Assembly (NCBI GenBank): GCA_903881565.1
Contig: CAIRTR010000308.1
Span: 1-33,960, forward strand
Length of the DNA: 33,960 bases
DNA from: Oligoflexia bacterium
GTDB lineage: Bacteria > Bdellovibrionota > UBA1018
Direction of reading: 5' to 3'
The notes beneath the pieces are model-generated. The model saw nothing but the letters and a program-made list of their open reading frames with translations. It did not search any database and was not told the origin of the DNA. Positions 28,687-33,336 of the stretch are shown here, piece after piece; within the stretch, counting starts at the first letter, position 1, and every line of letters begins with the position of its first letter. The position numbers and the translations under genes were made by a program.

Positions 28687-29172
28687 CTACTTCATCGTGG
28701 CTTCAGTGCAAATTTCGATGTGAATCTCTCCGGCAGGAGTTGCAAAGGGGAGTACGATTGTGGGGCCGGCCCCAAGCTGGGTGGTCTGCAGATTAGTCCC
28801 GCGCACGACCGTTGGAATCGCTTTTTGAATCGTATAACCTTGTTGATTCAGAACTGTTTTGGCGTGCCCAAATATGATGTTTAGAAACTCTGCCGCGCCA
28901 TCCTGCAGGTCCTTGGTGATAGTGGTGAAGGTTTCTCCCAGCATATTGCTCATCATGGCAAGGTAGACTTTTTCAGGAAAACAAATCGTAATCGATCCGG
29001 TAAACGCTGAAGAGGTGAGTCCGATGACGCCGGCGATCTCGAACGGGGGTTGTTCCTTTTGTCCCTTTACGAAGGGTTTGTCATGTTTGGCTTCTAGTGA
29101 GCATTGAATTTTCAGAGTGTTGATGGTGCCGTCGACAAAGGGTTTGAAGAACTTAACATCAAGTTGAGACAT
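28687..29172 (-). CDS. cheX: CheX-like chemotaxis phosphatase
   Basis: A 161-residue CheC/CheX/FliY-family protein, single-domain like CheX. The active-site helix LQDGAAEFLNIIFGHAKTVL keeps the paired Glu and Asn that act on phosphorylated CheY in CheX. The remaining fold (IAGVIGLTSSAFTGSITICF; TIVLPFATPAGEIHIEI) is typical. It would dephosphorylate the CheY encoded at 16327-16728 and so terminate signalling. The ATG at 29172 has AGGA 6 bases upstream and is only two bases after the stop of the tandem-UDG-like lipoprotein, so the two are one transcription unit, an odd pairing. Separated from the main chemotaxis cluster by about 9.5 kb. Confidence 0.9.
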   Translation of the reverse strand: MSQLDVKFFKPFVDGTINTLKIQCSLEAKHDKPFVKGQKEQPPFEIAGVIGLTSSAFTGSITICFPEKVYLAMMSNMLGETFTTITKDLQDGAAEFLNIIFGHAKTVLNQQGYTIQKAIPTVVRGTNLQTTQLGAGPTIVLPFATPAGEIHIEICTEATMK

Positions 29173-29174
29173 GC

Positions 29175-31343
29175 TTATTCCTTTTGCGTTGCGCTGGATT
29201 CTTCGGTGTTTTGTTTTTCAGCATCTTCATGAAGATTCTCATTTAAGACCTCACTTGCGCTAGTGCGAAAGAGATCCAGAGAAGTTTTTTCTGCGGCACC
29301 CAGGGCATCTGCAGGTGCCGGATAGTTTCTGGAGTTCACCCAAGATGGGGCGTCAAATTTATAATAATCCCCATTCCAGACAGTGTTTTTCCCCTCCTGC
29401 AGATAAGCGCGCGAGGCTCGGGTTCCGCTCGTGCCCATCCACCAGCGCGTGTGAGCCGGTAGGTCTTCCCTGGGGATGGATGTGAGTTGGCCGGTGTATT
29501 TTCCAGCGACTTTGATGCCCGCAATCTTCAGCGTGGCGATTTTGTCTAGCGCTTTTTGCCATTGGGCCACATGAGTTTTGGAGCTCGGATGCTCAAGATT
29601 GATCACCGAAATTTTTGAGTGCTGTGCCGCCATGACTTCAGCTGCGGCATCTCCTACGGTCAAAATCAGGGTGGTGCTTGCTTGCTTGAGGACTGAATCA
29701 ATAATTCGATTGCGCGTGCGCGTGACTTCCGGATTGAGTGCAACCTTTTTAACTTGTTCCGCCGAAAGATCTGACGTGTCCACGGGGAGCGTGCGGATGA
29801 TGGCGTAGTTATCTTTTGCGCCCAATGCGCCCAAGAAGGTTTGCAGTTGTTGGCCTCCGGTGCCGGTGTAGGCACGGGTGGAGAAGAGGTCGTCGTTGGA
29901 TTCCTGGTCGGCCAGGATCAGAATCTTAGGATTCTTCAAATTGCCACGATAGATGGCGCCCGTTCCAAAGGAGGGGTGCTGCGTGACTCCGAGAGCGCCG
30001 AAATCAGGCCAGTTATCGCCGGCTGTGCCCATGAGTTCGTCGGCAAACTCGCCAGGGCCTTCATCGTAGAGGCGTCGGCCTTGGGTGCTTTTGGGGCTTT
30101 CATAGGGCACGTCATCTGCAGCAAGTTTGAAAGCGCAGGCAACATCTTTGGGTTCCTGATAAAGGACTTTGGTCGTTTTTGGTTTATCGATAGTTCGGTC
30201 GCACTTGCCGTCATCCAAGCGGGCGACGTTGTTGTAGCAGCCAGCATCGGAGTAGATTTGGATTCCGTCTGCACCACGGCGATTGGTGGTGGTGCCGTCT
30301 TTACCCATGCGCCAGTTGGTTCCGAAGGCAAAATCCCGGTAGGGAATTGCAGCGTCCTTGTAAAAATAGCCGCGTGAAAAATCAGTGCGCATTCCGGGAT
30401 CGGCTTTGAGCCAATAAGGATTTAACTCAATCATGTGTGCCACTGTGGCGGCTTTCTTGTTGAATTCTCCGCGTAATCCCCCAGCGGCATCTGCGCCGCC
30501 GTTACGTGCGCTTGCTGCCCCAGGATGCATCACACCGATGGCCATGACACCTTTGCCTAAGACGCTTGCGTCGCAAAAAGAGCGGCTGAGTTGAGAGGCC
30601 GTACATTTTCCGCCATGAGAGGTGATCCAAGTCGCAAGGCTGTCTTTTCCTGCGGAGCCCACGCCAATGACCAGAGACAGCGTGCCCGAGTTTTGTTTGA
30701 GCATATAATCAAACATGCGATGGCGGTGCTGCACGATGATGCTTGCGGGGTTTTGGGCTAACCAAAACAGCGCTTTTGAGCGGACTTGTTTTTCTTTTAC
30801 AATTTCGGGGCTGTCCTCAGGCAGGGGTCTTTCGCCGTATTGGCCGGTGATGGTGTAGATGAAGGTGTTCATGAAAAGGTAGCTTCGATCGATTCCAAAG
30901 TAATTGATGAAGTTTTGCATCTTCGTGCCCGTGGAGCCCGTGAACGTCCGGTTGGAGGTGTTCTCGTCTTGAGCGCCTTCTTGACCGATCACAAATACTT
31001 TTACGCTATTGGGAGCGAGGCGGCCGCGGTACCACATGGGGCCGACTTTCCAGCGGAATTTCTCTTGCCCATCGTCTTTGATCTTCGCTGCCGCTGCGGC
31101 GGCTACGTAAACAGCCTTGCCATAGGCGCGGTAATTGGGAGTTTCTGCAAAGATGTCTGGCCAGTCAGAATCTTTGGGAGGGCCGGGATCATATTCAGCG
31201 GGTGTGCCGCGATTTTCTTTTGCGAATGCGGCCGGTTCGCGCGCCGAATCGCTTGCCATGGGCTTGATCGGATTCTGGGTGCAGGCACCGAGGATCATCG
31301 CCGTGAACGTGGGGAGGAGGAGTGTTTTTAGAATTGGTTTCAT
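29175..31343 (-). CDS. Lipoprotein with two tandem uracil-DNA-glycosylase-like domains
   Basis: A 722-residue predicted lipoprotein: signal peptide ending LGAC, lipid Cys21. Two copies of a UDG-superfamily-like fold follow. Copy 1 (about 98-315): motif I VIGQEGAQDE, then RTFTGSTGTKMQNFINYFGI, the LVIGVGSAGKDSL strand-loop, and motif II VMHPGAA (His273). Copy 2 (about 461-605): LILADQESNDD, YTGTGGQQLQTFLGALGA, LILTVGDAAAEVM and LEHPSSKTH (His585). Each copy is preceded by a YRG segment and followed by a Trp/Gly/Thr-rich motif (FGTNWRMGKDG; HTRWWMGTSG), so the unit is duplicated. Motif I lacks the exact GExPG or GQDPY residues, so catalysis is uncertain. Export of such a fold is unexpected. Function unknown; co-transcribed with cheX. 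Confidence 0.78.
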   Translation of the reverse strand: MKPILKTLLLPTFTAMILGACTQNPIKPMASDSAREPAAFAKENRGTPAEYDPGPPKDSDWPDIFAETPNYRAYGKAVYVAAAAAAKIKDDGQEKFRWKVGPMWYRGRLAPNSVKVFVIGQEGAQDENTSNRTFTGSTGTKMQNFINYFGIDRSYLFMNTFIYTITGQYGERPLPEDSPEIVKEKQVRSKALFWLAQNPASIIVQHRHRMFDYMLKQNSGTLSLVIGVGSAGKDSLATWITSHGGKCTASQLSRSFCDASVLGKGVMAIGVMHPGAASARNGGADAAGGLRGEFNKKAATVAHMIELNPYWLKADPGMRTDFSRGYFYKDAAIPYRDFAFGTNWRMGKDGTTTNRRGADGIQIYSDAGCYNNVARLDDGKCDRTIDKPKTTKVLYQEPKDVACAFKLAADDVPYESPKSTQGRRLYDEGPGEFADELMGTAGDNWPDFGALGVTQHPSFGTGAIYRGNLKNPKILILADQESNDDLFSTRAYTGTGGQQLQTFLGALGAKDNYAIIRTLPVDTSDLSAEQVKKVALNPEVTRTRNRIIDSVLKQASTTLILTVGDAAAEVMAAQHSKISVINLEHPSSKTHVAQWQKALDKIATLKIAGIKVAGKYTGQLTSIPREDLPAHTRWWMGTSGTRASRAYLQEGKNTVWNGDYYKFDAPSWVNSRNYPAPADALGAAEKTSLDLFRTSASEVLNENLHEDAEKQNTEESSATQKE

Positions 31344-31532
31344 AGGGTGAGTTCCTTCACTTTATTGATTTTGGCAGTAACTTGGGGGGTTGGCAACGCG
31401 TTTTGTGGTCGGAATTTTGACGGAAAATCGATTCGCCATGTAGGCCCTTCTGGGGCGCGCCACGAGCAGGTCTTCGAGGCCTAAACAGGAGGATGAACGA
31501 GATTGGTTAGGGCGTTTTCAGACTGCTTTGGT

Positions 31533-31626: not shown

Positions 31627-31654
31627 CTCCGGCGCAGGATGTTCTGCGTCGGAG
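31627..31654 (+). promoter_or_regulatory. Leader hairpin that buries the Shine-Dalgarno site
   Basis: CTCCGGCGCAG pairs with CTGCGTCGGAG over 11 positions (10 Watson-Crick, one G-U) with a six-base loop GATGTT. The right arm includes GGAG of the GGAGG (31651-31655) that serves the ATG at 31663. The fold would block ribosome binding unless opened by heat, a ligand, a protein or an upstream ribosome. No T run follows, so it is not a terminator. Confidence 0.6.
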
Positions 31655-31662
31655 GTTACAGC

Positions 31663-33336
31663 ATGCGAGCGATTCTAGCAGGTGCACTTCTTCTTAGCCT
31701 AACAACAGCGGTTTCATGGGCGGCTATCCCCGACGACGGATTCAATTTGATGGACTCTGTGATCGTTTCGCTCACCCCCCGAGGGCAGGCGGCCATCCAG
31801 AACCAAATCTTTGAAATGCTGTCCAACAAAGACCTTCATCTTTTGGAGCGCGATCTGCCGGATTTCAAATATCGCGCTGATAGCCCGATCAATCTCGAAA
31901 AGCTTCCGCCCGGCTATGAACAATTCAGCAAAGCCGTGAGGCAGGTCCGGCAGGCGATTAAAAAATGGATTGTGGGATTTCGCTTAAACGACCCGCAACC
32001 TTTAGTTGAAGCCGCCGGAATCAGTTACCAGGTCGGGCTTGAGGATTTTCAACTTCAAGCGGATTACGAAATCGAAAAGACCGGAAGTTCCAGGCCTTCA
32101 GAAAAATCTGTTCTCATGCGCCTTAAAGTCAAGATCCCGAATTTTAAATTCAAGATTTCCCGCCTGCGGGCCAAGGATTTGAATAACCCAATTTTAGGGG
32201 TCATTGGCGCAAACGCCCTCTGGCTGGGGCTGGCCGATTCGAGCGAAGCATTGAGCGTGGAGATTCCGGTTCGCATCGGAGTTAAAGACGATGGACGCTT
32301 TCAGGTTGAAGTGCTCCAGGTGCTTACTAATATTGCACGTCTCAAAATGACCTCAGGCTTTGATGCGCCACTGGTTTTGCCGAAAATTCAAGTGAGGATC
32401 GGAAATCAGGTTTCCACTCTTTCGCTGGATAAAGTGCGCAAGCTTGTCGAATCAAAACAGCCGCAAATGGCTGCAGCATTGGTTCGCTACTTTGATGACT
32501 TCGCTCAAACTAAACTCCCGGCGCAAATGAATCTGCTGCTGAAGCTTGCCGTGGCGAAGGGCTTTGAATTTTCAGGAGAGATGAGGGCTGCCGGCGAAAA
32601 TCCGCTGGGGACCCCCGGTGCCAAGATCAAGTACTTCATGCGGCCTCAAGATTTGAGTATGCGAGATGGCTTTTTGGATCTTTCGTTTGTCGGCAAACTC
32701 CATGATCCTCAGGCGACTCGTGAATATTTTGGTTTCAATCCTGCGGATCACCGGCCTTATCTGACTCATGCCCCCGAGCGCTACGATTTTGCTTTGGCCA
32801 TTAGTATTAACTACATTAATCGTTTCGTCCGGTTGGGCTTTGATCGCGGAAATTTTGCGAACATGCCCAATGACGATGGAACGTATCTTCATTTTGATGA
32901 GTCTCCACGGTTCATGGCGGATGATGGAAGACTTAAATATATGGATTTGAAGATTGATTTGAAGATGGACCCCGTCGGAATCGCGCAAAATCTGGTTCTG
33001 ACAACTCCGTATCGTGTGCAACTCGAAGCGACCAGCCGTGTGCGGGTGGCAGACGGTTCGGTCCAGTTGGTCATGGATGAGCTTAACGAAAGTTGGGTTC
33101 ATATCGCGGATCAATACATCAAGGAAAACAGTGACGTCGTTCGCAATATTGTCCGGTTTGAAGCGTTGAAGGTTTTGAAGTCCAAGAATCTTAAGTATCA
33201 CATGCTCAAGGGATTAATGCTTGCGGATAAGCTTCCGATCCCCCCACAGATCATGGGTATCCCACTGGAAATCGAAGATGTGCAGATTGATCCAGCAGGC
33301 TTTATCGTAACCTACGTCAACTTCGTGAGGCCGTAA
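31663..33336 (+). CDS. Exported protein of unknown family, first of a tandem paralogue pair
   Basis: A 557-residue protein with a clear signal peptide (MRAILAGALLLSLTTAVSWA). I use the ATG at 31663, 7 bases after GGAGG, not the in-frame ATG at 31639, which sits in the hairpin loop and would spoil the signal peptide. The mature part is mixed alpha/beta, rich in long beta strands (VLMRLKVKIPNFKFKISRLR; DLKIDLKMDPVG). Segments shared with the next gene include LTPRGQ, LEKLPPGYEQFSK, WIVGFRLNDP and AKDLNNPILGVIG. No lipobox or barrel terminus. Probably periplasmic or lipid-binding by its strand pattern, but that is only a guess. Next gene starts 2 bases after its stop. Confidence 0.8.
   Translation: MRAILAGALLLSLTTAVSWAAIPDDGFNLMDSVIVSLTPRGQAAIQNQIFEMLSNKDLHLLERDLPDFKYRADSPINLEKLPPGYEQFSKAVRQVRQAIKKWIVGFRLNDPQPLVEAAGISYQVGLEDFQLQADYEIEKTGSSRPSEKSVLMRLKVKIPNFKFKISRLRAKDLNNPILGVIGANALWLGLADSSEALSVEIPVRIGVKDDGRFQVEVLQVLTNIARLKMTSGFDAPLVLPKIQVRIGNQVSTLSLDKVRKLVESKQPQMAAALVRYFDDFAQTKLPAQMNLLLKLAVAKGFEFSGEMRAAGENPLGTPGAKIKYFMRPQDLSMRDGFLDLSFVGKLHDPQATREYFGFNPADHRPYLTHAPERYDFALAISINYINRFVRLGFDRGNFANMPNDDGTYLHFDESPRFMADDGRLKYMDLKIDLKMDPVGIAQNLVLTTPYRVQLEATSRVRVADGSVQLVMDELNESWVHIADQYIKENSDVVRNIVRFEALKVLKSKNLKYHMLKGLMLADKLPIPPQIMGIPLEIEDVQIDPAGFIVTYVNFVRP

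Follow-up and report, generated by a model that had tools for sequence, protein, structure and literature searches.

An exported lipoprotein with two uracil-DNA-glycosylase-superfamily domains and its linkage to exported partner families in Bdellovibrionota

Glycosylases of the uracil-DNA-glycosylase (UDG) type are known as intracellular repair enzymes. One of them, BdiUNG of Bradyrhizobium diazoefficiens, forms dimers and has a preference for single-stranded DNA; a fused tandem of two such domains would accordingly amount to a covalent version of this dimer. The same enzyme (Blr0248; PDB 5gn2, 5gn3, 5gnw and 5grk) is the closest solved relative of both domains of a lipoprotein encoded in the stretch of DNA analysed here, a contig of 33,960 nucleotides from an Oligoflexia bacterium of the phylum Bdellovibrionota (hereafter the window). 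BdiUNG-like enzymes are described as having wider substrate specificity (PMC8307549). Two further described systems are relevant to the genes that recur beside the lipoprotein gene in related genomes: known NADARs, which reverse ADP-ribosylation of guanine bases (PMC11543638, PMC11125620), and the secreted nucleases with which Bdellovibrio bacteriovorus degrades prey DNA (PMC7925074). Bd0934 and Bd3507 of the latter study are likewise exported, belong to the same phylum and act on prey DNA, but they are nucleases, and the word glycosylase is absent from that paper. No paper on exported UDGs or on Bdellovibrio UDGs was found in the literature searched, which covered few subscription journals; the exported tandem UDG family and its exported module are apparently undescribed.

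The gene lies on the minus strand and encodes a protein of 722 residues with the N-terminus MKPILKTLLLPTFTAMILGAC, which reads by inspection as a lipoprotein signal and places the protein among the lipoproteins. The initial annotation had proposed an LGAC lipobox, and this is indeed present, with Cys21 (codon 31281-31283) as the expected lipidated residue from the sequence reading. The features to which we refer below are as follows.

29175..31343, minus strand: gene for the exported tandem UDG-like lipoprotein, 722 aa (open reading frame with ATG start; Pfam UDG match; homologues in the phylum)
31353..31358, minus strand: ribosome-binding-site-like GAAGGA, 9-10 bases upstream of the ATG (read from the sequence)
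31281..31343, minus strand: signal peptide with lipobox LGAC (sequence; export signal in all complete homologues)
30390..31070, minus strand: UDG-like domain 1, residues 92-318 (profile against PDB, BdiUNG at E=1.9e-20)
30963..30986, minus strand: motif A of domain 1, GQEGAQDE, residues 120-127 (Gly 66/66, Gln 65/66, Asp/Glu 65/66)
30867..30869, minus strand: invariant Asn159 of domain 1 (66/66)
30510..30527, minus strand: motif B of domain 1, HPGAAS, residues 273-278 (HP in 65/66)
29316..30074, minus strand: UDG-like domain 2, residues 424-676 (profile against PDB and Foldseek search of a model)
29889..29912, minus strand: motif A position of domain 2, degenerate ADQESNDD, residues 478-485, with invariant Asp479 (family alignment)
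29424..29477, minus strand: family-specific C-terminal motif IPREDLPAHTRWWMGTSG, residues 623-640 (family alignment; domain-2 profile against PDB)

Assignment of both halves of the lipoprotein to the UDG superfamily is well supported computationally. The whole protein matches Pfam PF03167 (UDG) in two stretches with E=7.1e-9 and 36.3 bits (cut-off 24.3), while the single domains score 22.6 and 19 bits, both under that cut-off, and BdiUNG (5gn2) was matched by the whole protein in a phmmer search of the PDB (E=5.2e-13). Profiles built separately for each domain from 66 distinct homologues (residues 92-318 and 424-676) gave BdiUNG as the sole significant match among PDB sequences, with the E-value listed above for domain 1 and E=3.5e-12 for domain 2, and the two profiles also match each other (hhalign, probability 96.6, E=6e-10). 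Foldseek searches with predicted structures of modest confidence, namely the full-length model (pLDDT 49) and a model of domain 2 (pLDDT 65, pTM 0.68), returned exclusively UDG-superfamily structures among the 50 matches listed for each, with BdiUNG first in both cases (E=6.1e-9 for domain 2). A UDG alpha/beta fold is accordingly predicted by these models in each domain. The initial annotation had recognized an exported tandem UDG-superfamily protein from paired motifs in the two halves, all of which are present (GQEGAQDE/ADQESNDD, TGSTGTKMQNF/TGTGGQQLQTF, VGSA/VGDA and HPGAAS/HPSS), and its proposal is borne out by the profile and structure searches and by the consistent signal peptides of homologues.

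Domain 1 resembles BdiUNG in its GQ-acid motif A and in the RGRL and NTF.Y...GQ segments, and domain 2 in a common C-terminal DI..DLP...W element; specifically, the start of the IPREDLPAHTRWWMGTSG motif aligns with DIIAKDLPAGLPAWM of BdiUNG. The latter differs from the family in being a chain of 272 residues with a single UDG domain and no export signal. Moreover, the GQDPA form of motif A seen in BdiUNG-like enzymes is absent, its place being taken by GQEGA in the clade of the window's protein and by GQDGT or GQDAT in the other clade. Family 4 UDG and UdgX share the fold of the lipoprotein domains according to Foldseek, but their motif A is GE[A/G/Q]PG as opposed to GQ[D/E] in the exported family, and no Cys corresponding to their four Fe-S cysteines occurs among the columns at least 75% conserved in that family. 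The corresponding models TIGR00758 and TIGR03914 score 17.8 and 18.7 bits against cut-offs of 125.3 and 189.95, and identity with UdgX was rejected on the grounds of a score far under cut-off and the lack of a UdgX-type motif A. With family 1 Ung (GQDPY/HPSPLS) the protein has in common an acid as third residue of motif A and the HP of motif B, but TIGR00628 gives 14 bits against a cut-off of 185.75 and the lipoprotein contains no GQDPY. The two-domain architecture, export and motif set thus place it outside each characterized UDG family tested.

The 66 homologues diverge down to about 25% identity, yet almost all of them retain the active-site residues of domain 1: Gly120 in 66/66, Gln121 in 65/66, Asp or Glu at residue 122 in 65/66, Asn159 in 66/66 and His273-Pro274 in 65/66. 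These are the positions of UDG motif A, of the base-recognizing Asn and of motif B, respectively. Two main sequence clades are distinguished by their motifs, GQEGAQDE and HPGAAS-type in the clade of the window's protein and GQD[G/A]THIAE and HP[S/T]xLS in the other, the catalytic Asp having changed to Glu in the former. Domain 2 presents a different picture. Position 480, which would hold the motif A acid, is P or Q across the 66 homologues, and the family alignment contains no conserved HP at motif B; the HPSS of the window's protein is not conserved and thus provides no evidence for another canonical active site, which was rejected for domain 2. Domain 2 nevertheless possesses invariant residues of its own (Arg466, Gly467, Asp479, Ala491, Gly494, Gln498 and Pro520) and a conserved motif I-P-R-x-x-L-P...W-x-G-T-S-G, part of which aligns with the C-terminal DIIAKDLP segment of BdiUNG. 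The retention of motifs in domain 1, together with the loss of motifs A and B but presence of invariant residues in domain 2, suggests an enzyme fused to a non-canonical partner. Domain 1 is thus a plausible enzyme, its catalysis being predicted from conserved residues, and domain 2 looks like a catalytically degenerate but conserved partner. The initial annotation had read the divergent motif I as a sign that the protein may bind rather than cut, a view that is not favoured given that each of the acid, Asn and HP of domain 1 is missing from at most one of the 66 homologues and that BdiUNG, the nearest relative with a solved structure, is described as an active glycosylase of wider substrate specificity (PMC8307549).

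A profile search of the phylum, which named members of the tree identify as Bdellovibrionota, detected the UDG-like family in 80 of 369 genomes, spread over 51 of 182 genera, as proteins of about 640-950 aa that combine a pair of fused domains with a linker and motifs specific to the family. From these, 66 distinct long sequences were analysed, 65 of them with a complete N-terminus, and by inspection every one of the 65 shows an export signal at its start (of lipobox type in about 19, of signal-peptidase-I type in the rest); apart from these signals of two kinds, the N-termini are unrelated. An automatic signal rule was positive for 60/66 homologues, the misses being open reading frames that were over-extended or cut, versus 171/382 neighbouring genes. 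Localization of the family outside the cytoplasm, as predicted from these signals, is well supported computationally. The window's genome additionally encodes a separate UDG of ordinary type, SMUG1-like in its motifs by eye, so that the exported protein is not its sole UDG. Host families f1 and f11 each contain members of both clades in the tree, and the gene has therefore probably been transferred between lineages or differentially lost. The protein found no match in phage and plasmid collections, PADLOC or PHROG, and a search of viral contigs with the domain-1 profile likewise gave none.

To identify recurring neighbours, all genes within five positions of the UDG gene were clustered across 66 loci of the phylum. 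Exported proteins of three kinds recurred: an amidohydrolase (17/66 loci), an EEP nuclease (8/66) and a NADAR/YbiA-like protein (8/66). The amidohydrolases retain a nucleobase-deaminase-type active site, comprising HxH, HxxE, H and D, and their best models are guanine, 8-oxoguanine and 5'-deoxyadenosine deaminase, although these matches are weak and far under the equivalog cut-offs. The NADAR-like partner has sequence similar to the NADAR/YbiA/gp30.3 N-glycosidases but differs in being exported, and its matches fall under the Pfam cut-off. Phylum-wide searches were then compared with random gene placement, with a pair distance limit of 10 kb. UDG and amidohydrolase genes lie within this distance in 20 of the 35 genomes that have both (0.25 expected), with 10 UDG-NADAR pairs (0.53 expected), 7 UDG-EEP pairs (0.22 expected) and 15 NADAR-EEP pairs (0.29 expected) also observed; the NADAR family occurs in 72 of 80 UDG genomes (24 expected) and the UDG family in 35 of 41 amidohydrolase genomes (8.9 expected), the significance of both clustering and co-occurrence being inflated by genome relatedness. 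Because 11 of the 15 NADAR-EEP pairs are located away from the UDG gene, this linkage is independent of how the families were chosen, and the UDG-amidohydrolase pairs were drawn from seven or more families, with both UDG clades represented. Linkage of the UDG gene with the exported partner families is well supported computationally. In the window itself the partner genes are not adjacent to the UDG gene; the same genome carries an exported NADAR (L109:2761-3510) and an amidohydrolase (L110:2825-4978) on other contigs, each with a signal peptide by eye, and yielded no EEP match at the threshold used.

The partner families have features of their own. The exported NADAR/gp30.3-like N-glycosidase family, which includes the L109 protein, occurs in 111 genomes of the phylum and is apparently undescribed as an exported protein; it is also found in a genus (g89) with many complete genomes and no UDG gene. 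The exported amidohydrolase, present in 41 genomes (e.g. L058:7698-9809 and the L110 protein), has an additional C-terminal region. The stretch separating the UDG gene from the amidohydrolase gene also holds members of two recurrent exported families without a Pfam match, represented by a lipoprotein of some 290 aa (L056:8090-8980) and a small one of some 180 aa (L058:6235-6801) that is simply exported. Finally, staphylococcal-nuclease-type genes occur near the UDG gene in two genomes (L016:10466-11164 and L015:8754-9581), and a gene of phospholipase-D type, by eye, in a third (L014:3553-4770).

Insofar as proximity to exported nucleases and base-processing enzymes suggests removal of bases outside the cytoplasm, we infer that the lipoprotein is an extracytoplasmic base-removing enzyme within an exported nucleic-acid-digesting set, a reading of catalysis, substrate and digestive role to which we assign a probability of about 0.5. 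The protein would be anchored outside the cytoplasm with two BdiUNG-type UDG domains in tandem, of which domain 1 would probably act as a functional N-glycosidase, flipping a base out of nucleic acid and removing it, this base being uracil-like, deaminated or otherwise modified, and domain 2 would probably contribute to substrate binding or stand in for the partner of a UDG dimer. Within this set, the EEP nuclease may cut, the glycosidases may strip bases, modified ones included, and the deaminase may process the freed bases, such that the exported set would break down prey or environmental nucleic acids, with their modified or damaged bases, for uptake. More tentatively, the UDG, NADAR, deaminase and EEP proteins could form a base-stripping module of Bdellovibrionota, performing an extracytoplasmic, base-excision-like digestion of modified or damaged prey nucleic acids. 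The initial annotation had entertained a role towards foreign DNA; indirect support for such a role now comes from the exported enzymes whose genes cluster with this one, namely nucleases, the deaminase-type amidohydrolase and the NADAR-like N-glycosidase, and the role itself is still one that we infer. If active, these would be glycosylases serving digestion or attack instead of repair. A consistently exported, phylum-wide family with retained motifs would place UDG chemistry beyond the cytoplasm and connect it with the consumption or disarming of nucleic acids by predatory-type bacteria, and the clustering unites four otherwise unannotated or vaguely annotated genes into one concrete, testable module.

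Some of these observations could also be accommodated by a non-catalytic lipoprotein that binds nucleic acid through two UDG domains acting as binding modules, for instance in DNA capture, biofilm DNA or DNA uptake, as the missing motifs A and B of domain 2, the Asp-to-Glu change in the clade of the window's protein and the membrane anchoring of about 19 of 65 members would allow. However, binding alone would not obviously need motif A, Asn and motif B of domain 1 to be kept down to ~25% identity, and most members carry signal-peptidase-I signals and are thus not lipid-anchored; we regard this reading as unlikely, if credible. Alternatively, the substrate might be a non-polymeric N-glycoside outside the cytoplasm (a nucleotide, nucleoside, NAD/ADP-ribose or glycosylated metabolite), with nucleotide salvage carried out alongside the NADAR and amidohydrolase proteins. 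The known families of these partners act on N-glycosides and free bases, and NADAR presence tracks the UDG family, but the solved relatives are DNA enzymes and EEP and staphylococcal-nuclease genes lie nearby, making such a substrate improbable.

An envelope barrier that strips bases from incoming phage or plasmid DNA would be in keeping with the patchy distribution and the presence of both clades in single host families, which is common for defence genes. Yet the protein lacks a PADLOC or PHROG match and is flanked by genes for exported enzymes, not by known defence genes, and we consider a barrier function distinctly improbable. The view that the export signal is false and that the lipoprotein does ordinary repair in the cytoplasm, as the intracellular location of known UDGs would lead one to expect, is hard to reconcile with two kinds of export signal at the starts of all complete homologues, whose N-termini are otherwise unrelated, and with the presence of another UDG in the genome; this explanation appears very improbable. 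Base removal from nucleic acid outside the cytoplasm is the reading that we prefer.

Within the window, a CheX-family gene (28687-29172, minus strand) starts 2 bases past the stop of the UDG gene and is possibly co-transcribed with it, and is followed by a gene for a chalcone-isomerase-like exported protein. Neither of these, nor a divergent pair of exported proteins, recurs in conserved neighbour clusters elsewhere, and they were rejected as functional partners. The divergent pair is encoded by two consecutive genes (31639-33336, plus strand, without a Pfam match, and 33339 onward); in each product an LT.RGQ segment follows a leader, and the two look like tandem paralogues.
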